Below, piece by piece: positions 14,716 through 60,473 of a stretch of DNA of 64,000 nt (position 1 is the first letter of the stretch; the number at the start of each line of letters is the position of its first letter). This DNA comes from Thauera aminoaromatica S2 (GTDB lineage Bacteria; Pseudomonadota; Gammaproteobacteria; Burkholderiales; Rhodocyclaceae): positions 1 through 64,000 of the forward strand of contig NZ_AMXD01000001.1 in the NCBI RefSeq assembly GCF_000310185.1, read 5' to 3'. The translations under genes were made by a program, and so were the position numbers. The notes below the pieces were generated by a model, which ran no database searches, was not told the DNA's origin, and was given only the letters and a program-made list of their open reading frames with translations.

Positions 14716-14873
14716 CGCCTTCCCCTCATGCGGCCCCTGTGCTTTAAAGGTAGTGAGCCGCGGCAAAGTTGCAAGATGAACATCGGCTTTTCGGTCCGCC
14801 CGCATTGACCGCTTCCGGCGGGCTTTGCGGGCAGTCGGCCTCCGCGTGGCCCGGCAAAGTGCCGCAGCGTAAT

Positions 14874-46923: not shown

Positions 46924-47042
46924 ACGGAACACGCGACCTTCCGGGGCGACAACCGGGAGCGCACCCGCTGCGGTTTGTTGACTGACGCCCTTCCGGGCGA
47001 TGCCGATGCTGGCGGCTCGTTCCCGTACCGCGAGTCGTCACC

Positions 47043-47822
47043 ATGGCCAATGAATCCCAGCCGCCCCTGCAGTTGAATCTCGGATCGCTGCGCAGCGCGA
47101 TGTCGCTGACGCTGCACACCCACCACGCTTCACGCATCTGGCATGGCCGAGCGCCTGCCGAGGGCCGGCCCGGGATCATCGGCCTGAACGGCTACATCAG
47201 CGTGATGAACAAGATGAAGCGCGGCGCCGAGCAGGACGATCCCTACTCGGATTTCTGGATGCTGCGCATCGAGGACAAGCTGACGCAGACCAAGGACAGC
47301 TTGCAGGCGCTGCGTGAGCAGGTGGACCAGGCGCTGGCCGACGTGCCGCCCGCGCTGTCGCTGGGCGAGAACATGAACGTGCAGCCCGTGAAGCTGCCGC
47401 TGTTCGTCAATGCGCAGCTCGGCTTCATAGCGGTGTACCTGCTGGCCGACTACGACGACCTGGCCCGCAAGCTGATCCTCGCCCACCACACCGCGCTGAT
47501 CGACCGCAGCACGCTGGAACGCTGGCTCAACGACGGCGCGCATGCGCTGCGCAGCCTGTTCTCGCTGGCACAGCAGTACCGCTACTCCGGCGCGACGCGC
47601 GACGACTTCGCCTCGAAGAACGCGGTGGCGCGGGCGGCGCTGGAGAAGTTCGGCGAGTTGCCGCAGGACGTGCTCGAAGGCACGCGCCGCTCGCGCTTTG
47701 CGCCACCGATCGCACGGCGGTCGGGCAAGCCTGGTAAAGCCGCGGATGCCGCACCCAGCGCTGGCGCAGCCGACGTGGCGGACGACGACCACGACCATGA
47801 CGGCGAAGGCACGAAGGCATGA
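47043..47822 (+). CDS. TIGR03761-family integrating conjugative element protein
   Basis: 259 residues. LGSLRSAMSLTLHTHHASRIWHGRAPAEGRPGIIGLNGYISVMNKMKRGAEQDDPY is the conserved start of the TIGR03761 ICE family; the C-terminus is a low-complexity Asp/His/Ala tail. Function unknown. First gene of a tightly overlapping operon with DUF3158 and ssb, behind two palindromes. In ICEclc this region holds the promoter of inrR, needed for full integrase expression; either this or the next gene would be its counterpart. Confidence 0.85.
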   Translation: MANESQPPLQLNLGSLRSAMSLTLHTHHASRIWHGRAPAEGRPGIIGLNGYISVMNKMKRGAEQDDPYSDFWMLRIEDKLTQTKDSLQALREQVDQALADVPPALSLGENMNVQPVKLPLFVNAQLGFIAVYLLADYDDLARKLILAHHTALIDRSTLERWLNDGAHALRSLFSLAQQYRYSGATRDDFASKNAVARAALEKFGELPQDVLEGTRRSRFAPPIARRSGKPGKAADAAPSAGAADVADDDHDHDGEGTKA

Positions 47823-51583: not shown

Positions 51584-51698
51584 GTCGTGGGCGAACGGAA
51601 TCGTGCATCGCTGCTCTTGCCAGCGCTCGGCCCAAACTGGACGGCGTTCGGTTCCGTTTGATCAGCGACGGAGTGCCGCCGCGCTTTCATTCTTCCCG

Positions 51699-51774
51699 CA
51701 TGTGTCGCTGACGGTCGTCAGCACCATGCCCTGGCAGCCCCGGTCCTCAAGGCTGCAACGCGGTTCGCCGCGTT
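51699..51774 (+). ncRNA. Three-hairpin ICE RNA element, copy A
   Basis: CATGT, hairpin 1 (GCTGAC-N4-GTCAGC, 51707-51722), linker CACCATGCCCTG, hairpin 2 (GCAGCC-N11-GGCTGC, 51734-51756), hairpin 3 (AACGCGG-TTCG-CCGCGTT, 51757-51774, UUCG tetraloop). Lies 141 bp before the next start codon. Confidence 0.75.
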
Positions 51775-51914
51775 GACCGATCCAGTCCGCTTCGCACCGA
51801 CCACCGCGGACGCGCGTCGCCACGACGCGGGTGCTTTTCATGTTCAACCCTTCGGGAGGTATCCGCTCCCGTCAGGGCGTGGTGCTCCCGGTCTTCAACC
51901 AACAGGAGAAAACC

Positions 51915-52166
51915 ATGTCCCTTGCGCTCGCATCGGCACCTTTGAGTGCTGAACAGGCCCGAGCCGAATCCATCGGCTACCAGGCCCTGGCCTGCGTCGG
52001 CAAGCGCCTGCCCCTGCAAGTGCTGTGCAGCGCAGCCGGCCACTACATCGGCACCGCCGATGCGGACGGCCCGGTCTCGCGGGAGTCGGTCAGCTACTTC
52101 CGCTCGCACCACGCCGCCGAGCACGCCCTGCAAACGGGCCGCTGGCAGCAGCGCCTCCACCCGTGA
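51915..52166 (+). CDS. Hypothetical ICE protein (83 aa)
   Basis: ATG at 51915 with ACAGGAG upstream. Sequence MSLALASAPLSAEQARAESIGYQALACVG, then GHYIGTADADGPVSRESVSYFRSHHAAEHALQTGRW. No family recognised. First gene after RNA copy A and the post-topB terminator, so probably the first cistron of the small-gene operon. The HYIGTAD...PVSRES core resembles small accessory proteins of conjugative elements. Confidence 0.75.
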   Translation: MSLALASAPLSAEQARAESIGYQALACVGKRLPLQVLCSAAGHYIGTADADGPVSRESVSYFRSHHAAEHALQTGRWQQRLHP

Positions 52167-52191
52167 TGTCCAACCACCAGGAGCCCATGTC

Positions 52192-52584
52192 ATGAACCGT
52201 GCCCTGCCTCAAGAGGTACTTGATCAGATCGAGCTGGAACACCAGCACTTCGCCGCCGCGCCCCAAGCCTTCTTCGAGGCGTGGAAACGCGGCGTCGACA
52301 TCGCCGGAGCCGAATGGTTCGGCGACGGCACCCGCGAAGGCCTGCAGCGTGCCACCACCAAGTGGGATCTGCGGCCGAAGCTGCTGATGCTCAACGATGC
52401 CCTCGGCGTCCTGAGCAGCGGCCAGCGGATGTTCCTGTCCGCGATGGTGAGCTTCTACAACGCCCGCGAGGGCGGTGCGATGCTCAAGCGTTGCGGCTTC
52501 GAGGGTCTGTCCGACCTGGGCGGCCTCGACCTGGAACGGCGCAAGGTCGTCGCCGACCTGACGCTGAACTACAACGGCTGGTGA
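52192..52584 (+). CDS. Hypothetical ICE protein (130 aa)
   Basis: MNRALPQEVLDQIELEHQHFAAAPQAFFEAW... then WDLRPKLLMLNDALGVLSSGQRMFLSAMVSFYNAREGGAMLKRCGFEGLSDLGGLDLERRKVVADLTLNYNGW. Mostly helical, soluble, no known motif. Recurrent in PAGI-2-like elements as far as I can judge from its style. AGGAG lies 13 nt upstream of the ATG at 52192. Confidence 0.75.
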   Translation: MNRALPQEVLDQIELEHQHFAAAPQAFFEAWKRGVDIAGAEWFGDGTREGLQRATTKWDLRPKLLMLNDALGVLSSGQRMFLSAMVSFYNAREGGAMLKRCGFEGLSDLGGLDLERRKVVADLTLNYNGW

Positions 52585-52629
52585 GCCGCGCTGCGGCCTG
52601 CCGACGTTCTTCTTTTCTTCCCACCCCAC

Positions 52630-52670
52630 GAGGGACATGCGTCCCTGCATGGGGCCATGTCCCTCCTTTT
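52630..52670 (+). terminator. Intercistronic hairpin with T-tract
   Basis: GAGGGACATG (52630-52639) pairs with CATGTCCCTC (52656-52665), followed by CTTTTC and then the next gene's AAAGGAG. Closely similar in layout and flank to the hairpin at 61733-61769. Confidence 0.55.
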
Positions 52671-52687
52671 CTTGAAAGGAGTGATTC

Positions 52688-53152
52688 ATGTCCCCTGACT
52701 TTTCCATCGGTCTGCTCGTGACCGACGACGACATCGATGCGGTCATCCTTGAAGGCTGGCCGGCCGACGTGCGCAAGCCGCGCATCGTGGTGTTCGACTA
52801 CGCCGGCAATGATGTGCCCGACGAGTATGTGCTGCATGTCAGCAGCGGAACCCCGAATACCGGATTGACCGGGCGCGAGGTGTTCCCGGTCGAGTACGGA
52901 CCCGACTGCCGCTACCCATCGCCCGCTGAAGTCCTTTCGGTGCTCGATGCACCTAAGCCGGCCGGAAAACCTTCCGCGCTGAGCATCGCCCGCAACGTGC
53001 ACCAGAGCATCCTCAACCTGGATGCGCGGCTGGATCGCCTGGAGCAGGCGCCGACCGGCGACGACTACAACCGCCTGTACCAGCTTGCGAATGGCGGCCT
53101 GCTCGACCTGTTGAAGGCGCTGGGCGACCCGTCCTCTACCGCTGCCGGCTGA
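52688..53152 (+). CDS. Hypothetical ICE protein (154 aa)
   Basis: Starts MSPDFSIGLLVTDDDIDAVI with AAAGGAG before the ATG. IVVFDYAGNDVPDEYVLHVSSG and a C-terminal helical part (SILNLDARLDRLEQAPTGDDYNRLYQLANGGLLDLLKALG), the last part looking like a coiled coil. No family recognised. Acidic. Confidence 0.75.
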   Translation: MSPDFSIGLLVTDDDIDAVILEGWPADVRKPRIVVFDYAGNDVPDEYVLHVSSGTPNTGLTGREVFPVEYGPDCRYPSPAEVLSVLDAPKPAGKPSALSIARNVHQSILNLDARLDRLEQAPTGDDYNRLYQLANGGLLDLLKALGDPSSTAAG

Positions 53153-53179
53153 CCGGCTGCCACTTCATCCACCCGCTGG

Positions 53180-53199
53180 GGTTCAATCCCCAGCAGGGG
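53180..53199. promoter_or_regulatory. Palindromic hairpin before the 238-aa gene
   Basis: CAATCCCC-AGCA-GGGGATTG. It resembles the CTATCCCC-N-GGGGATAG palindromes in its CCCC/GGGG core but with a wider centre, and lies 33 bp before the ATG. Confidence 0.5.
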
Positions 53200-53232
53200 A
53201 TTGCCTCGGCCATCCCCTGCTGGAGAAATCCC

Positions 53233-53949
53233 ATGTCCTACTCGTACAACAATCCCTTTGTCCGCGGCTACGACGGCCTGTCCGTCCAGCGGCTGCTCGC
53301 CATCTCCTACGACGACGACTGCCCGCTGACCTACCTGCCGCTGCATCCTTCGCAGTCGAATCTGCCGGACAGCCAGGTCGAACGGCGGGCCTGCATCTTC
53401 TCGGACGACTTCGTGCTGATCACCGAGGACCAGGTGGTCCCCAACGAGTTGCAGGCGCAATGCCGCAGCCACGGGCTCGCCCGCAACGTGGTCTATGCCG
53501 TGATGGCCGAGGAAGACGGCAAGCCACTGCACGTGGGCGACACTTACTCCGAAGAAGCGGCGCGGGAAGTCGTGCGGCGCCTGCGCTATGAAACCGGCTA
53601 CTACAGCCGGTGCTGGGAAATCAGCAGCGCGCACCTCGACGCCGACGCACACCGCTTCCTCGCCGAACTGGCGGACATCGCCACGCCGACGCTGTTCCTG
53701 TTCGTCGCCTTCCGCATCCCGTACGGCCCGGCCATCGGGTTGAAGCTGATCGCCACGCCCTGGACCGACGAGAACCTGCGCGCGGTCGAAGGCATCACGG
53801 CCAAGCGGCTGATGCAGGAGCATCGCAAGAAGGGCATGCCGGAATCCCTCATGCACGTGCTGCACCTGGCCGCGCTCGCCGACGTGCGCATGCTGGTCTT
53901 CGATGCCGATGCGCAGGTGCTGGACGGCCTGCCGATCTACGACGACTGA
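53233..53949 (+). CDS. Hypothetical ICE protein (238 aa)
   Basis: Starts MSYSYNNPFVRGYDGLSVQRLLAISYDDDCP. Later segments: ACIFSDDFVLITEDQVVPNEL, NVVYAVMAEEDGKPLHVGDTYSEEAAREVVRRL, FLAELADIATPTLFLFVAFRIPYGPAIGLKLIATPW. Soluble, mixed alpha/beta, no catalytic motif seen. Two short cores (NVVYAVM..DG.PLHVGDTYSEEAAREVV) suggest a repeated or dimeric binding fold. Part of the ICE small-gene operon. Confidence 0.75.
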   Translation: MSYSYNNPFVRGYDGLSVQRLLAISYDDDCPLTYLPLHPSQSNLPDSQVERRACIFSDDFVLITEDQVVPNELQAQCRSHGLARNVVYAVMAEEDGKPLHVGDTYSEEAAREVVRRLRYETGYYSRCWEISSAHLDADAHRFLAELADIATPTLFLFVAFRIPYGPAIGLKLIATPWTDENLRAVEGITAKRLMQEHRKKGMPESLMHVLHLAALADVRMLVFDADAQVLDGLPIYDD

Positions 53950-54060
53950 CACCACCTTTCGAGCCCCCACGCGGGGCTCGTATTCTTTCTGGACGAAGCC
54001 GGTGGACGCGCAGTGCCGATTCCCCCGCGTCGCTGGCCCACGCCTGACGCACGCTGCTCG

Positions 54061-54134
54061 CATGTTCGCTGGCGTTGCCGGCAAGCATGCCCAGGCAGTC
54101 GAGACCTTCGAGGCTGCGGCACGGTTCGCCGTGC
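54061..54134 (+). ncRNA. Three-hairpin ICE RNA element, copy B
   Basis: CATGT, hairpin 1 (GCTGGC-GTT-GCCGGC, 54068-54082, one U-G pair), linker AAGCATGCCCAG, hairpin 2 (GCAGTC-N11-GGCTGC, 54095-54117, one U-G pair), hairpin 3 (GCACGG-TTCG-CCGTGC, 54119-54134). 107 bp before the next ATG. Confidence 0.75.
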
Positions 54135-54241
54135 TGGTTGCTATTCCTTCTCCGGGCGCATGTCGCGTCCATCCACCTCACCCCCAAGGGACACACCTCC
54201 CTTGCGGGCGGAAGTCCCTTGGTTGCCACAAGGAGTCTTCC

Positions 54242-55039
54242 ATGGATACCCAAGCCATCCGCGCACAGATGCCGACGCTGGTTCGCGGCCACGTGCCTTC
54301 CAACGTCCGCAGCTTCAAGTTCAACATCTTCGACGGCCAGCCCAAGGTTTCGACGCTGGGCTTCCACGTTGATCCCAAGCCCTTCGAGGGCAAGGTCATC
54401 GCCACCACCGACGAGGCCATCGTCGTCAAGACGGGGCGGGCCGAGTTCGCGGTGCTCGACAAGGCCCTCGTCACCGACGTGCCCGACGAAGGCGCCAAGG
54501 TGCAGGTCGAACCGTATGCGCGGCGCCGCTTCGACGGCTTGCGCGCGGATACGCCCGAGGAGAGCACTGAGTTCACCGCCGACGGCCAGCCGTACACGGT
54601 GAAGCGGCTCATCCTGGGTTCCGCGCCGGCCAAGCTGCCGATCCCCGAGCCGCAGTGCCCCGAGCTGCAGGAGCTGATCCACCAACTGGAGCAGTTGCCC
54701 GCGCCCGATGGATTCCGCCGCATCACGCACCTGCTGGTGGATGCCGGCGCGCGGGACTTCACGGTGGTCGATCCGAGCCCCAGCAACATCATCGCCACGC
54801 CGCCGGCCATCGGCTTCACCGTCGCTTCGGCGAAGTTCCAGGGGCGCGTCACCGTGCTCTACGAACGCGGCCTCGACACCTACGCGGTGGAGCTGCATCG
54901 CGAAGGCGAGCTGGTCGAGCGGGTCGATGAAGTGTTCTTCGACACCTTGGGCCAGATGCTGGAGCGGCTGATCGACGACGGGAGCTGGCGCCTCATCCGC
55001 GTACAGCGCCTGTCCGGTCGCAAGCCCGTCCAGCACTGA
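54242..55039 (+). CDS. Hypothetical ICE protein (265 aa)
   Basis: Starts MDTQAIRAQMPTLVRGHVPSNVRSFKFNIFDGQPKVSTLGFHVDPKPFEGKVIATTDEAIVVKTG. Proteins of this type are often labelled GTPase in ICE annotations, but no P-loop is visible, so I do not support that. C-terminal half: VVDPSPSNIIATPPAIGFTVASAKFQGRVTVLYERGLDTYAVELHREGELVERVDEVFFDTLGQMLERLID. Ribosome-binding site AAGGAG before the ATG. Function unknown. Confidence 0.78.
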   Translation: MDTQAIRAQMPTLVRGHVPSNVRSFKFNIFDGQPKVSTLGFHVDPKPFEGKVIATTDEAIVVKTGRAEFAVLDKALVTDVPDEGAKVQVEPYARRRFDGLRADTPEESTEFTADGQPYTVKRLILGSAPAKLPIPEPQCPELQELIHQLEQLPAPDGFRRITHLLVDAGARDFTVVDPSPSNIIATPPAIGFTVASAKFQGRVTVLYERGLDTYAVELHREGELVERVDEVFFDTLGQMLERLIDDGSWRLIRVQRLSGRKPVQH

Positions 55040-55114
55040 TCCCCTCACGTCCCCAAGCGGCTTCCCGTCCTCGCGGCGGGAAACCTTCTTCCTTCACCGT
55101 TGGAGACCACTTCC

Positions 55115-55480
55115 ATGACTGTTCGATTCAAAGGCACCGAGCTTCGGCCCGTGCTTGCCGAGGCGGCGGCCAACCAGTGCCGCGTCATCCTGGTCAAGGA
55201 CCAGGGCGTGTATTTCATGGCCGAGCACGGCGAGAGCCGGCCCGATGGGCGGCGCAAGACCATCGCCTACGCCGTGGGCTGCAACCCCGATGTCGATGCG
55301 TTCGACGACTGGTGGGAACTGGCGCGCGCCGAATTCGGCGGCGACGACTTCGGCGAGTTCTTCGCCCTGCAGGAACGGGTCCTCACCCGTATCCTGCACA
55401 GCGAGGACGACCTCGAAGTGTCGGCCACGGTCACGCACCTGTCGATGCAGGCGGTATCCGCTGCACCGGCCGGCCACTGA
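55115..55480 (+). CDS. DUF3085-like ICE protein
   Basis: 121 residues, ATG at 55115, GTTGGAGA upstream. VRFKGTELRPVLAEAAANQCRVILVKDQGVYFMAEHGES resembles DUF3085 (substrate unknown) with its VKDxGVYxM core; then KTIAYAVGCNPDVDAFDDWWELARAEFGGDDFGEFF. Soluble, acidic. Spacing and strand place it in the same operon. Family call from recall only. Confidence 0.65.
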   Translation: MTVRFKGTELRPVLAEAAANQCRVILVKDQGVYFMAEHGESRPDGRRKTIAYAVGCNPDVDAFDDWWELARAEFGGDDFGEFFALQERVLTRILHSEDDLEVSATVTHLSMQAVSAAPAGH

Positions 55481-55623
55481 CCGTACTGCTTCCCAGCCCC
55501 CTTCACGGGGGCTTCTCTTTATCTCGTGCCGCGGCCCATGGCCGCATCGCACGCGCTCGTCTCCAGTCCGGCTCGGGCCGCTCACGCCGGCATCTGCCGG
55601 TGCCACCGCCTGGTGACGCCTGC

Positions 55624-55968
55624 ATGCGAGACCCGTTCAAGATCGAGCAACCGACCTGCATCAGCTTCAGCGGCGGCCGCACCAGCGCGTACATGCTCTG
55701 GCGCGTGCTGCAAGCCAACGGCGGCCTGCCCGCAGATGCCGTCGTCTGCTTCGCCAACACCGGAAAAGAAGTGGAAGCCACCTTGCGCTTCGTGCGCGAC
55801 TGCGCCGAGCACTGGCAAGTGCCGATCCACTGGCTGGAGTACCGGCCCATCGAACCGGGCTTCGTGGTGGTGGACTTCGATACCGCCAGCCGCGCGGGCG
55901 AGCCCTTCGAGATGCTGGTCCGCAAGCGGCAGTACCTGCCCAACCCGGTGGCGAGAGGGTGCCACTAA
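55624..55968 (+). pseudogene. Truncated PAPS reductase/PP-loop family gene
   Basis: 114 residues: CISFSGGRTSAYMLWRVL is the PP-loop (SGGRTS) of PAPS-reductase-like/DndC-like ATP pyrophosphatases, followed by VVCFANTGKEVEATLRFVRDCAEHW and the start of the domain's second half (VRKRQYLPNPVARGCH, then stop). Relatives run on for ~150-200 residues after the PNP motif with further cysteines. Here the frame ends 64 bp before RNA copy C, so the 3' part seems deleted. Probably non-functional. Confidence 0.7.
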
Positions 55969-56031
55969 TGCGGACAGCCGCCGGTGCCGATTGCCGCTCG
56001 CGCGGGCGCGCGCCTGGCGCCACGCTGCCGC

Positions 56032-56108
56032 CATGTTCCGCTGACGCCCGTCAGCAGCATGCCCAGGCAGTCTCGATCTTCAAGACTGCGACGCGGTTCC
56101 GACCGCGT
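56032..56108 (+). ncRNA. Three-hairpin ICE RNA element, copy C
   Basis: CATGT, hairpin 1 (GCTGAC-N4-GTCAGC, 56040-56055), linker AGCATGCCCAG, hairpin 2 (GCAGTCT-N9-AGACTGC, 56067-56089), hairpin 3 (ACGCGGT-TCCG-ACCGCGT, 56091-56108). 158 bp before the DUF3577 ATG; the gap between also holds an hairpin with arms CACCCAAG/CTTGGGT. Confidence 0.75.
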
Positions 56109-56266
56109 TGATCAACCAGTTCGCTCCGGCATCCCAGCGCGAACAGCCATCGGTTCTCCCGATGGTGATGCCACCCAAGCTGTTCCTTCAACCCACGCGG
56201 GGGTTCCACACCTTCCCCGCCTTGGGTCGGGTGTGTCTCCGCCTCATTGTTCTCAGGAGATTCACC

Positions 56267-56830
56267 ATGACCACTTCCACCGACAAGTCCTACTTCGACC
56301 TGCACATCACCGGACTCGGGTATCTCAATCGCATCCGCGAAGTGAAGCCCAAGAAAGGCGATGCGTTCCTGGCCTGCGACATCGCGGCGCTCAACGGCCC
56401 CAGCGATGACGTGGCCTACGTGCGTTTCGACACGCGCGTCTCGGGCTCCGAAGCGCAGCACCTCGTGCGCCGCTGCATCCAAGCGGTCGATGCCGAGAAG
56501 AAAGTGATGATCGGCTTCCGTCTGGGCGACCTGTGGGCCGACACCTTCACCTACTCCAAGGGCAAGCGTGCCGGCGAGCAGGGGGTGAGCTTCAAGGCCC
56601 GCCTGCTGTTCGTCAGTTGGATCAAGGTCGACGGCAAGCTCGTCTACAAGGCCGAGCCCAAGCCGACCGATGCCGACCAGCGCGACGAACGCGACGTGCG
56701 TAACACGGATGTCCCCGCGACGTTCGCTGAGCCGCAAGCCGCTGCGTTCGAGCCCGCCAGGCCCGCCGCCGAAGCTGCCGACGAAGCCACTGCCGATGCG
56801 CCTGCATTGGAAGTTGCCGAGTCGTTCTGA
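56267..56830 (+). CDS. DUF3577-family ICE protein
   Basis: 187 residues, ATG at 56267 with CAGGAG upstream. KSYFDLHITGLGYLNRIREVKPKKGDAFLACDIAALNGPSDDVAYVRFDTRVSG is the STY3554-like/DUF3577 core; SFKARLLFVSWIKVDGKLVYKA ends the conserved part; the C-terminus is an Ala/Glu-rich tail. The overall fold pattern suggests an OB-like single-strand-binding module, but this is not established. Conserved across this ICE family. Confidence 0.82.
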   Translation: MTTSTDKSYFDLHITGLGYLNRIREVKPKKGDAFLACDIAALNGPSDDVAYVRFDTRVSGSEAQHLVRRCIQAVDAEKKVMIGFRLGDLWADTFTYSKGKRAGEQGVSFKARLLFVSWIKVDGKLVYKAEPKPTDADQRDERDVRNTDVPATFAEPQAAAFEPARPAAEAADEATADAPALEVAESF

Positions 56831-56835
56831 TCCGC

Positions 56836-56870
56836 AAGGCCCCGACTCTGAATTGAGTCCGGGGCCTTGT
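56836..56870 (+). terminator. Strong hairpin after the DUF3577 gene
   Basis: AAGGCCCC(-)GACTC pairs with GAGTCCGGGGCCTT around TGAATT, one bulged G, directly after the stop; followed by GTCTTCTCCC. Termination or mRNA-end stabilisation. Confidence 0.55.
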
Positions 56871-56950
56871 CTTCTCCCACTCGCGTGCGCATGCGACCGT
56901 CGCCATGACGGCCGTGTGCGTGATCGCAGCTTCGTCCGCAGGAGTTCTTC

Positions 56951-57580
56951 ATGATCACCATTCCCGGCCAATTGGCCATCAAGACCATCCACGGCCGTAA
57001 CGGCGACTTCAACGTCGGGCGCCTTGCGACCTCCATCGGCGAGTTCGTCGTGAAGAACGCCGAACTCGACCAGTACGCCGAAGGCAAGTACGAGGGCGAT
57101 TTCGCCATCGCGGAGATTCGCCCGTCCACGTACACCGCCAACGGCCGCATGGTCATTGAGATCCGCGCCCTCCTGGGTGGGATGACTTTGTCCAACATCG
57201 ACGCCCTGAGCCGTGACGACGCCCGCCGGCTGAGTCCGCAGGAAGTCGATCCGATCGACGAGGAAGCGCAGACCGCCACGCCGACGCCGACGACCGCCCC
57301 CAAGGCGGCCGGCCGGAAGAAGGCGCGCAGCTCGCGCGACCCGCTGGTCGATACCACGCCGTTCGGCAGCGAGCCGGCTGCTGCGTCTGCCGAGGCTACG
57401 GCCCATGCGGACGACGACGGCGACGCGGCGCTGTTCGGCACACTCTGGCCGCTGGGCGATGTCGTCAAGCTCGATGCCACCGTGGATCGGCGCGTGCTGC
57501 GTCAGCAGCGCGACCGCCTCGGCGACCTGGGCTACGAGTTCGCTCCGCTGTCCCAGGACTGGCACCTCACCAGGGTCTGA
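56951..57580 (+). CDS. DUF3275-family ICE protein
   Basis: 209 residues. MITIPGQLAIKTIHGRNGDFNVGRLATSIGEFVVKNAELDQYAEGKYEGDFAIAEIRPSTY is the DUF3275 N-terminus, followed by a Thr/Pro/Ala linker (about 105-150) and a small C-terminal domain (FGTLWPLGDVVKLDATVDRRVLRQQRDRLGDLGYEF). GCAGGAG upstream. Conserved in PAGI-2-like ICEs; unknown function. Confidence 0.85.
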   Translation: MITIPGQLAIKTIHGRNGDFNVGRLATSIGEFVVKNAELDQYAEGKYEGDFAIAEIRPSTYTANGRMVIEIRALLGGMTLSNIDALSRDDARRLSPQEVDPIDEEAQTATPTPTTAPKAAGRKKARSSRDPLVDTTPFGSEPAAASAEATAHADDDGDAALFGTLWPLGDVVKLDATVDRRVLRQQRDRLGDLGYEFAPLSQDWHLTRV

Positions 57581-57632
57581 TCCCATCGCCATTTCACGCC
57601 GCATGCCTGCGGCTTTCCACCACCCGCCGGGG

Positions 57633-57658
57633 CTCCTTCCCCGGCGGGAGGACTCCGG
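57633..57658 (+). promoter_or_regulatory. Intercistronic hairpin (10-bp stem)
   Basis: CCCGCCGGGG-CTCCTT-CCCCGGCGGG (within about 57627-57655), 20-30 bp before the next ribosome-binding site. No T-run, so more probably an mRNA punctuation element than a terminator. Confidence 0.5.
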
Positions 57659-57681
57659 CCCTTTCTCACAGGAGTCATTCC

Positions 57682-58074
57682 ATGGGCTGGACATTCGTTC
57701 GATTGACGCGCGATCAGTTGATCCGCGAGCTGACCGCAACCGAGGAAACCGAGCGGTCGCGCAGTGAGGTCATCGACCACACGCTGGTCGGCAACGTGCT
57801 GTGGACGGTGGCGCGCGTCACCGCCAAGCAGGCCGGCGTCCTGGGTCTCGCACCCGGCGAGTCGGCCACCTTGATCGGCTGCCATCTGCTGGAAAGCGAG
57901 GGCCGCGAATGGGGCTACAAGTTCCTGGTCGAGGCCGAGCACCCGTACTACTACTCGTGCCCGCTGCGCTATCTCGACATGGCGCCGCAGCGCTGCGCCA
58001 CCTGGCGCGCAAGGGTGCATGCCTTCCACCAGCAGCCGACGCGCAAAGCGGCCGGCGATGCAGCCACCGACTGA
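57682..58074 (+). CDS. Hypothetical ICE protein (130 aa)
   Basis: MGWTFVRLTRDQLIRELTATEETERSRSEVIDHTLVGNVLWTVARVTAK, then GYKFLVEAEHPYYYSCPLRYLDMAPQRCATWRARVHAFHQ. Soluble, small alpha/beta protein rich in aromatic residues; the EaeHPYYYsCPL core looks conserved in ICE proteins of this position. Preceded by CACAGGAG. No known motif. Confidence 0.75.
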   Translation: MGWTFVRLTRDQLIRELTATEETERSRSEVIDHTLVGNVLWTVARVTAKQAGVLGLAPGESATLIGCHLLESEGREWGYKFLVEAEHPYYYSCPLRYLDMAPQRCATWRARVHAFHQQPTRKAAGDAATD

Positions 58075-58081
58075 GGCGAAC

Positions 58082-58351
58082 ATGGACACCCTCATGTCGT
58101 CCTTGCCGCCCGAGCTGCTTCGCTTCGTCGAAGACCAGTTGGCCAACAACGAGGTTTCCGACGACGACGAACTGCGCGAGCACTTCATCGCCAACGGCCT
58201 GAGCGAAGAACAGGCGTGGCAGGCACTGACCTACCGCGCGCTGTACCTGCGACACGTCTTTCTCGACGGCTTCACGCCGATCCTCAAAGGCCAGGAAGCG
58301 CTTTGCTTCAACCCGCACAGCCGCGGCTGGGAGCCGGTTCCGAACCCATAG
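58082..58351 (+). CDS. Hypothetical ICE protein (89 aa)
   Basis: MDTLMSSLPPELLRFVEDQLANNEVSDDDELREHFIANGLSEEQAWQALTYRALYLRHVF... Acidic and helical. 8 bp after the previous gene, so co-translated. The segment LREHFIANGLSEEQAWQALTYR looks like a small UBA-like helical bundle; not a supported family. Confidence 0.75.
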   Translation: MDTLMSSLPPELLRFVEDQLANNEVSDDDELREHFIANGLSEEQAWQALTYRALYLRHVFLDGFTPILKGQEALCFNPHSRGWEPVPNP

Positions 58352-58392
58352 GCCGGCCTTCACGCGGCGCACTTCTTCATCCCTTTCATCAG

Positions 58393-58415
58393 GCCCTGTT
58401 CAGCAGGGCTTTTCT
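58393..58415 (+). terminator. Intrinsic terminator
   Basis: GCCCT-GTTCAGC-AGGGC followed by TTTTCTTC, 42 bp after the 89-aa gene. A 5-bp (weak) stem with T-tract. Confidence 0.55.
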
Positions 58416-58488
58416 TCGTCCTACGCAATCGCACGCATCCGGCCTCGGCCGCTGGATGCCGATTGCTCCATTCCGCAAGGAGATCATC

Positions 58489-59316
58489 ATGCAACTCGCA
58501 TCTCGCTTCGCCCCTCGTTCCCCGGTGCTGCGCGCCGACCATCCGTTGTCGGACGATCAGATTCGCACCGTGGCCCCATCCATCTTCGCGGACACCCCGC
58601 ACGAAAGCCGCTCCGAACGGTACAGTTACATCCCCACGGCGGCTGTGCTGACCGAACTGCGCAGAGAAGGTTTCCAGCCGTTCATGGTGTGCCAGACCCG
58701 CGTGCGACACGAGGATCGCCGCGACTACACCAAGCACATGCTGCGCCTTCGCCACGCCAGCCAGATCAACGGCGCCGAGGCGAACGAGATCATCCTGCTC
58801 AACTCGCACGACGGCACCAGCAGCTACCAGATGCTCGCGGGCATGTTCAGATTCGTCTGCCACAACGGCCTGGTGTGCGGCGACACCTTCGCCGACGTGC
58901 GCGTGCCCCACAAGGGCAACGTCACCGATCACGTGATCGAAGGCGCCTACGAGGTGCTGCACGGCTTCGAGCGCGTGCAGGACTCGCGCGACGCCATGCG
59001 CGTCATCACCCTCGACGACGGCGAGGCCGAAGTCTTCGCCAGGTCGGCGCTGACCTTGAAGTACGACGAGTCGGGCAAGGCCTTGCCCATCACGGAGACG
59101 CAGATCCTGCGGCCTCGTCGTTTCGACGACAACCGTGCCGATCTTTGGTCGGTCTTCAACCGGGTTCAGGAGAACCTGGTCAAGGGCGGCCTGACTGGCC
59201 GTGCCGCCAACGGGCGCCAGCAGCGCACGCGACCCGTTCAGGGCATCGACCAGAACGTCCGGCTCAACCGGGCGCTTTGGCTGCTCGCGGATGGCCTGCG
59301 TCAGCTCAAAGCCTGA
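58489..59316 (+). CDS. DUF932-family ICE protein
   Basis: 275 residues, ATG at 58489 with AAGGAG 7 nt upstream. Contains the DUF932/phage-plasmid-like core: LTELRREGFQPFMVCQTRVRHEDRRDYTKHMLRLRHA, GAEANEIILLNSHDGTSSYQMLAGMFRFVCHNGLVCGDTFADVRVPHKGN, VIEGAYEVLHGFERVQDSRDAMR. Known in plasmids, phages and ICEs; suggested anti-restriction or DNA-metabolism roles are unproven. Confidence 0.88.
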   Translation: MQLASRFAPRSPVLRADHPLSDDQIRTVAPSIFADTPHESRSERYSYIPTAAVLTELRREGFQPFMVCQTRVRHEDRRDYTKHMLRLRHASQINGAEANEIILLNSHDGTSSYQMLAGMFRFVCHNGLVCGDTFADVRVPHKGNVTDHVIEGAYEVLHGFERVQDSRDAMRVITLDDGEAEVFARSALTLKYDESGKALPITETQILRPRRFDDNRADLWSVFNRVQENLVKGGLTGRAANGRQQRTRPVQGIDQNVRLNRALWLLADGLRQLKA

Positions 59317-59323
59317 CCCACAA

Positions 59324-59357
59324 GCGGATCGTGCCTCGCGGCATGGTCCGCTTTTTC
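59324..59357 (+). terminator. Intrinsic terminator after the DUF932 gene
   Basis: GCGGA(TC)GTGCC-TCGC-GGCAT(GG)TCCGC followed by TTTTTC, 8 bp beyond the stop. A two-part stem with a 2x2 internal loop. Confidence 0.7.
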
Positions 59358-59638
59358 TTTGGCGGCGCTGTGCTGCCAGCGCACCACGTTCAGTTTGGTT
59401 CGGTGTAACCCTAATGCGGCAATTCGCTGCCGCCGCGAAAATTGCGGTTCGACTGCATACCTCCCTGGCTTTTCCTCCCTGAGCCAAGCAGTCATCTTTG
59501 CCGCCTCGGTGTTCCCGGGGCGGTTTTCTTTTATGGCCGTCCTTCCAGGCCGCGGGCGATGCGCCAGCGCAAACAGGGTTGGACGCTGGGTCGGTTTTCC
59601 GCTCCCGCTGTAGGCGCACCTTGGCGCAGGCTATGTCC

Positions 59639-59711
59639 CATGTCCGTCGGCGTTGCCGACAACATGCCCAGGTAGTCCAGACCTTCAAGGCTACGGTGCG
59701 TTGCGACGCAC
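59639..59711 (+). ncRNA. Three-hairpin ICE RNA element, copy D
   Basis: CATGT, hairpin 1 (GTCGGC-GTT-GCCGAC, 59646-59660), linker AACATGCCCAG, hairpin 2 (GTAGTC-N11-GGCTAC, 59672-59694, one U-G pair), hairpin 3 (GTGCGT-TGCG-ACGCAC, 59696-59711). 105 bp before the next ATG. No protein-coding gene is seen in the 500-bp gap 59317-59816. Confidence 0.75.
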
Positions 59712-59816
59712 GGTCTGATTCTTCACCACGACGCTCACCGCGTCTTCTTCCATCCCCCTGGGGCAGTGACTGCCCTCGCGGTTGGTGCTGTCTCCGCTCA
59801 CTTCGAGGACATCACC

Positions 59817-60473
59817 ATGCCTGCACCTTCTTCCCCCAAGACGCTCTATCGCATCGACGAATGCCCCGACCTGATGGCCGATGGCGTCGTCGGTGACGAG
59901 AACGGCAACCTGGTCTTCATCTCCCTCTGGGCGCGCGACACCGCCGTCCAGGAATTCCTGGCCCGCCTCACCCTGGGCCGGGACGAACAGGGACTGGATC
60001 AGTTCCACGTCATCACCGAGCAGGGCGCCAGCATCCCGGTCTTCGTCGGCAACGTCGAGAACCTGGAGAAACGCAGCGCACGCGCCTACCGGCGCACGCT
60101 GTTCGGCTCGCTGACCAACATCTGGCTGTTCGATCGGCGCTGCGTCAAACCCGACAAGGCCAACGCCAGCGCACTGGCGCTCCTGCCTCGCGATTCCACG
60201 CACCGGCTCGACCGGCTGTGGACGCTGGTGCGGGACACGTGCCCGCTGCCGCTTCTCGATCCCTGGCGCGACAGCGTACTGGAACTGCTGCAGGCGAAGT
60301 CGATGCTGACGCGCCTGCCGTTCGCCCTCGGGCCTCTGGAAGGCCATCGGCTCGCCATCGACGTGCCGACGCTGACCGAGGTGCTGGGCGGCCTGATCCG
60401 CAGCGGCGCGCTCGTCGGCGGCGCACCCGCCAGCCGCACCCCCTCGGCGCAACCGCTCGAAGCGGTGGCTTGA
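59817..60473 (+). CDS. Hypothetical ICE protein (218 aa)
   Basis: MPAPSSPKTLYRIDECPDLMADGVVGDENGNLVFISLWARDTAVQEFLARLTLGRDEQGLDQFHVIT, then FVGNVENLEKRSARAYRRTLFGSLTNIWLFDRRCVKPDKANASALALLPRDSTHRLDRLWTLVRDTCPLPLLDPW. Soluble, mixed fold; no motif known to me. In this ICE family it directly precedes the DUF6094 gene. Weak ribosome-binding site (CGAGGACATCACC). Confidence 0.75.
   Translation: MPAPSSPKTLYRIDECPDLMADGVVGDENGNLVFISLWARDTAVQEFLARLTLGRDEQGLDQFHVITEQGASIPVFVGNVENLEKRSARAYRRTLFGSLTNIWLFDRRCVKPDKANASALALLPRDSTHRLDRLWTLVRDTCPLPLLDPWRDSVLELLQAKSMLTRLPFALGPLEGHRLAIDVPTLTEVLGGLIRSGALVGGAPASRTPSAQPLEAVA

Follow-up and report, generated by a model that had tools for sequence, protein, structure and literature searches.

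Four radC RNAs in an integrative and conjugative element of Thauera aminoaromatica S2: pseudoknotted RNAs behind a promoter motif, possibly leaders of transfer-competence mRNAs

In the genome of Thauera aminoaromatica S2, a window of 64,000 nucleotides (contig NZ_AMXD01000001.1, positions 1 to 64,000) was analyzed, in which four copies of an RNA element (A to D, Table 1) precede genes of an integrative and conjugative element (ICE). Judged by their sequences, all four belong to the radC RNAs (RF01754), and they are new members of a known family. As the family was known already, the new and useful part is the functional placement of the RNA. Most copies lie 38–40 nt downstream of a promoter motif which also matches some of the published transfer-competence promoters, and transcription seems to start at the outer helix of the RNA or within 1–2 nt of it. 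The favored reading, which is held tentatively and falls somewhat short of probable, is that radC RNA forms a pseudoknotted leader at the very 5′ end of mRNAs from the ICE transfer-competence regulon and acts after initiation, on stability or processing or on translation. ICEclc, to which the window was compared, is a model element in which a few per cent of the cells become transfer-competent.

A scan of the window with Rfam 15 at curated cutoffs (cmscan) gave four matches in total, all to the cis-regulatory family RF01754 "radC RNA" and all on the + strand. The scores (Table 1) exceed the gathering cutoff of 40 bits, the E values range from 3e-15 to 1e-23, and each copy spans model positions 1–149 of 149. 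An own covariance model, built for the three-hairpin region, found the same four places of the window and no others. The family goes back to Weinberg et al. (2010; PMC2864571), where radC is tabulated as certainly an RNA ("Y"), probably cis-regulatory ("y") and, as a riboswitch, with a question mark ("?"). A preliminary description of the window knew of no described RNA with such a layout and had proposed an Rfam search. Since all copies match RF01754, the claimed novelty of the layout falls, but the element itself is real: a structured, covarying + strand RNA in ICE gene leaders is supported by the Rfam match, the own model and the covariation. The copy coordinates given there, with CATGT at the first base of each core, were right, and the stems, the linker CATGCCC-[A/T]-GG and the distance of 105–160 nt to the ATG of the following gene were recovered as well. 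The outer CATG/CATG helix, the pseudoknot, the upstream promoter motif at a fixed distance, the Rfam entry and a fifth copy were not mentioned in it. This fifth copy is located outside the window, 27 kb downstream in the same genome, directly 5′ of a gene encoding a RadC JAB-domain protein (PF04002).

Within the genus, radC RNA is present in 15 of 29 species. Of 369 genomes of the class, it was found in 2, including the window genome, and in the order to which a Paraburkholderia belongs in 5 of 160. This scattered distribution is as expected for mobile DNA. Searches of phage and plasmid DNA added nothing.

For the analysis of the secondary structure, 106 copies with flanks were collected and the three-hairpin region was modeled; 116 matches were aligned, 100 of which are distinct (alignment A4). 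Pairs were counted in this model-fitted alignment, as hairpin 1 was misaligned in about 16 rows of a MAFFT alignment (A3). The nested helices are paired in 96.8% of the cells, although A4 was fitted to these helices and leans towards its own structure there. Sliding the structure reduced the paired cells to 19–41%. Cells in which both sides of a pair change number 236 compared to 68 ± 12 in shuffles, cells being counts of sequences and not independent events. Covariation, which the preliminary description had seen in four copies, is significant in this wide alignment, where both partners vary in 15 of the 22 pairs. The G-U pairs (103) are well above the A-C mismatches (17), which identifies the + strand as the structured one, as had been proposed. 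At the level of sequence comparison, these results establish a conserved + strand fold, in which hairpin 1 caps the outer CATG/CATG helix and is followed by hairpins 2 and 3, together with a pseudoknot. The folding energies of the single copies are modest (z −1.1 to −4.3), and therefore the case rests on comparison and not on energy.

The pseudoknot is a fifth helix, formed between the 5′ half of the hairpin-2 loop and the stretch that immediately follows hairpin 3. It was not part of the model, so its counts are unaffected by the fitting of A4. All five pairs change on both sides, 85.3% of the cells are paired, and 74 double-change cells were counted compared to 24.5 ± 3.6 in shuffles, whereas slid controls reached at most 48.8% paired cells. 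The register was picked after viewing the slides (one column off gives 24% paired). A per-sequence test, which is independent of the register, found a helix of at least 4 bp in 98% of the copies compared to 71% with tails swapped among the copies. Besides the pairs of the window copies (Table 1), GGGUG/CACCC, GAACC/GGUUC, AAACC/GGUUU and GGAUCU/AGAUCC occur in other copies, and in the minimum free energy fold of copy D a part of the helix is visible. The nested Rfam structure of RF01754 lacks the pseudoknot supported here. However, radC/RF01754 is among the families with covarying pairs absent from the database structure (Rivas, 2020; PMC7657543), the pairs being unnamed in the main text of that study, and because of this listing the pseudoknot may already stand in its supplement.

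Two diverged radC copies in the genome of Pseudomonas sp. MIACH (L150 and L151) are devoid of the CATG outer helix and retain the hairpins as well as the pseudoknot (AAACC/GGTTT and GAACC/GGTTC). In the ICEclc copy of region UR84835 (L171), TCTTTTTTCTT directly follows hairpin 3, so that hairpin 3 and tail of this type look like an intrinsic terminator; the tail overlaps the pseudoknot strand.

An earlier motif search on the raw promoter regions of ICEclc gave noise, as these regions are long and the radC copies dominate them. Instead, a position weight matrix was trained on the upstream flanks of 43 nonredundant radC copies, with ICEclc excluded. The flanks have a 27-bp motif in common, AAtccGG-N10-cGaTGCCGATTt, which is present in 75 of the 106 radC copies. 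The distance from its end to the first base of the outer stem is 38 nt (47 copies), 39 nt (24) or 40 nt (4) in all 75. The 31 copies without the motif are chiefly of the radC-gene type, located within the 3′ end of the preceding open reading frame (ORF). With the window copies excluded from training, six matches above 13 bits were found in the window, namely those of the four radC copies (scores in Table 1) and two more, at 46951 and 14780 (−). The radC flanks further contain a conserved block ending in CT at the place of the −10 region of the inrR promoter (GATCCT). As the first ~10 unpaired conserved positions of the RF01754 model coincide with the −10 region inferred here, positions 1–10 of the family model may be promoter DNA and not RNA. 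When genome contigs were scanned with a loose inrR-promoter pattern, the matches that were checked were chance matches.

A Paraburkholderia genome carries ICEclc, as 22 ORF stop codons lie within 1 nt of the published numbers at a single offset of 1853 bp. Five radC copies were identified in this ICEclc copy, upstream of ORF89247, ORF88400, ORF84835, ORF81655 and ORF58432. One of them thus lies at promoter P81655, and near the integrase end no radC match was found. Transcript units have been mapped to start at 88400, 84835, 81655 and 58432 (PMC2892462), so four of the five copies stand at the beginning of a published unit (85934–88400, 83350–84835, 68241–81655 and 53587–58432). Such published mapping in ICEclc lends indirect support to a + strand transcript of the element. 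In the 134 kb holding ICEclc, the matrix gave six matches of at least 17 bits compared to 0.33 expected, all on the coding strand, preceding ORF88400, ORF84835, ORF81655, ORF91884 (topA), ORF67231 and the inrR operon. In the same scan it gave no score at alpA, traI or 58432. The promoters of ORF88400, ORF81655, ORF67231 and inrR are BisDC- and InrR-dependent, and the published regulon also holds alpA, traI, intB13 and 58432 (Sulser et al., 2022; PMC9286271). Of these promoters, those of ORF88400 and ORF81655 have a radC copy with the motif, and those of inrR and ORF67231 have the motif as well. ORF88400, ORF81655 and 58432 belong to nine regions with bimodal, subpopulation-specific expression, 58432 being weak (PMC9286271). 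In the literature searched (open-licence papers, main texts), no report was found that connects radC RNA to the ICEclc regulon.

The start of inrR transcription was mapped by rapid amplification of cDNA ends (RACE) (PMC2892462). The motif adjoins the published −35 region, and the RACE start lies 40 nt after it. Applied to the radC loci this spacing reaches the outer stem, and for this reason transcription of the radC units is placed there, a start which would make radC RNA the 5′-terminal leader of the transfer-phase mRNAs. For ORF81655 the predicted start is 224 nt before the start codon, in rough agreement with the mRNA 5′ end at ~250 nt reported from primer extension as "results not shown" (PMC2892462).

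The strong ICEclc motif before topA is located between ssb and topA (L164, G577:C1:3568264-3568290), where an extra promoter upstream of ORF91884 had been suspected (Gaillard, 2010). In the window, the radC-less motif at 46951–46977 precedes a PFL_4669/AcaB-family gene (47043–47822) of an inrR-type operon, the counterpart of ICEclc ORF95213, which is the first gene of the inrR operon. Because AcaB activates transfer in IncC plasmids, the ORF95213-type gene could be a regulator and not a mere hypothetical protein. The match at 14780–14806 (−; 16–18 bits) is far from transfer genes, and further matches without radC lie on the same contig (G000:C1) at 78133 (+), 87582 (+) and 95053 (−), with 16–24 bits.

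The equation of radC with the published 27-bp promoter motif was rejected, as inrR and 67231 have no radC, whereas UR84835 and UR89247 have radC but were reported as motif-free. A DNA-level element, i.e., an operator or a single-stranded DNA promoter or structure in conjugative transfer, was considered as well. The radC elements lie within ICE transfer genes and adjoin the promoter motif, and single-stranded + DNA would likewise tolerate G-T pairs. The strand asymmetry and the compensatory changes argue against a plain double-stranded site, a DNA site being one of the refuting outcomes named in the preliminary description; pseudoknot and UUCG-type loops suit RNA, the promoters have the motif and not radC in common, and the radC-gene type keeps the fold without any promoter motif. 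Altogether, a DNA element is very improbable.

In the favored reading of a 5′-terminal leader, motif-driven transcription would begin with the first bases of the outer stem, so that radC RNA would form the 5′ end of transfer-phase mRNAs, and for the copies without motif, the type found ahead of radC genes, processing would expose the RNA. The compact 5′ fold would then raise and coordinate operon output after initiation, which is the least certain step. The simplest route would be that the fold shields the mRNA 5′ end from 5′-end-dependent decay and marks the processing end, and the conserved hairpin-2 loop (GAUCUUCAAG) would leave room for a bound protein. P81655 has the highest read coverage of all, yet its reporter equals Pint, from which the authors concluded post-transcriptional control (PMC9286271). 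This is a supporting hint for a role after initiation. The regions UR84835 and UR89247 gain RNA coverage in stationary phase but show no promoter activity, for which small fragments or transcript processing were invoked (PMC9286271).

Several points weigh against this reading. The start placement rests on one RACE site, at a promoter devoid of radC, and on the one unpublished primer extension. UR84835 fits poorly, having a strong motif and radC, yet no reporter activity (PMC9286271). The 31 of 106 copies without motif, the radC-gene type included, mean that radC is not simply part of the promoter, and inrR, topA and ORF67231, with motif and without radC, mean that it is not needed for regulon membership. 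A bolder form, in which a regulon-wide 5′-terminal pseudoknotted RNA controls the transfer operons after initiation, either as cis-acting processive antiterminator of a conjugative element or as sensor of a factor present only in transfer-competent cells, is regarded as rather unlikely.

A translation-level cis-regulator or riboswitch-like leader would have the pseudoknot bind a transfer-competence protein or a small molecule and control ribosome access ~110–160 nt downstream. The position in the 5′ untranslated region, the compact pseudoknot and the conserved hairpin-2 loop fit such a leader, as do the "y" and "?" of the published listing (PMC2864571). Mutually exclusive stems just before the Shine-Dalgarno sequence, with one 5′ arm and two identical 3′ arms, were found at 51840–51914 and 54170–54241, i.e., in the leaders of A and B, and at 52610–52687 before a radC-less gene at 52688; the like occurs in 1% of shuffles (6-mers). 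Before C and D no such stems were found. Being patchy across the copies they provide no consistent expression platform, and alternative leader hairpins as a general switch were rejected. The genes downstream of radC copies also share no metabolic theme, which leaves this explanation unlikely, though the strongest of the rivals.

The genes following the copies and terminator-like hairpins nearby are listed in Table 1. The protein encoded downstream of B resembles the one after the ORF84835 copy of ICEclc.

Table 1. Features around the four radC RNA copies of the window (positions within the 64,000 nucleotides).
Feature	Position	Strand	Remarks
27-bp motif upstream of A	51634–51660	+	AA..GG-N10-..TNCCGATT; 22.3 bits
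radC RNA copy A	51689–51834	+	RF01754, 120.7 bits, and own model; core 51699–51774
Pseudoknot A	51741–51779	+	CGGTC 51741–51745 (hairpin-2 loop) with GACCG 51775–51779; A4 covariation
Gene after A	51915–52166	+	83 aa, no family
Terminator-like hairpin after gene preceding B	53960–53980	+	consensus match
27-bp motif upstream of B	53996–54022	+	18.9 bits
radC RNA copy B	54051–54211	+	RF01754, 93.5 bits, and own model; core 54061–54134; ICEclc UR84835 type
Pseudoknot B	54103–54139	+	GACC 54103–54106 with GGTT 54136–54139 (one G-U, one A-U, two C-G)
Gene after B	54242–55039	+	265 aa, no family in Pfam or NCBIfam; counterpart of ICEclc ORF84835
Terminator-like hairpin before C	55495–55513		consensus match
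27-bp motif upstream of C	55967–55993	+	25.9 bits
radC RNA copy C	56022–56171	+	RF01754, 126 bits, and own model; core 56032–56108; ICEclc P81655 type
Pseudoknot C	56075–56113	+	GATC 56075–56078 with GATC 56110–56113; covariation and per-sequence test
Gene after C	56267–56830	+	STY4534 family ICE replication protein (DUF3577); counterpart of ICEclc ORF81655
Terminator-like hairpins before D	59322–59353, 59500–59524		consensus match
27-bp motif upstream of D	59572–59598	+	16.5 bits
radC RNA copy D	59629–59782	+	RF01754, 88.6 bits, and own model; core 59639–59711
Pseudoknot D	59678–59717	+	CAGACC 59678–59683 with GGTCTG 59712–59717; covariation and per-sequence test
Gene after D	59817–60473	+	218 aa, no family

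The terminator-like sites bear on a further explanation, that radC is a cis-acting processive antiterminator like the put RNAs of phage HK022, where the 5′ RNA modifies RNA polymerase for terminator readthrough between ICE operons. Copies of radC are predicted at the very start of long operons, and a 14.5-kb ICEclc transcript starts at ORF81655 (PMC2892462). Terminator-like hairpins occur within or between units, such as 58391–58411 inside the unit of C, which is not followed by a motif, as well as just before radC copies, and 16 of the 18 sites are on the + strand. However, these sites are consensus matches only (18 found compared to 10 expected), and radC is missing from the units with promoters at ORF67231 and inrR, so that antitermination appears improbable, if less so than a DNA element.

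Published in 2010, the radC RNA is still an orphan motif, and the papers found to name it do not test it. With its placement at named, reporter-tested promoters of ICEclc, its function can be tested in strains that already exist. This placement may also explain why the very high coverage at ORF81655 is unmatched by reporter output, and why ORF84835 and ORF89247 show jumps in coverage but no promoter activity, which had been ascribed to "transcript processing".

The put antiterminator RNAs of lambdoid phages are stem-loops at the 5′ start of long operons. The radC RNA is similar to them by its predicted 5′ operon position; it has three hairpins and a pseudoknot. The motif published for the BisDC regulon (S3 Fig, PMC9286271) and the motif described here are both 27 bp long and may, but need not, be the same. 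Finally, the STAXI motif (Weinberg et al., 2010; PMC2864571) has pseudoknots and UUCG-type loops near DNA-processing genes of mobile elements in common with radC RNA, but STAXI consists of tandem pseudoknots, unlike radC RNA, and cmscan assigns the window copies to RF01754 and not to STAXI.

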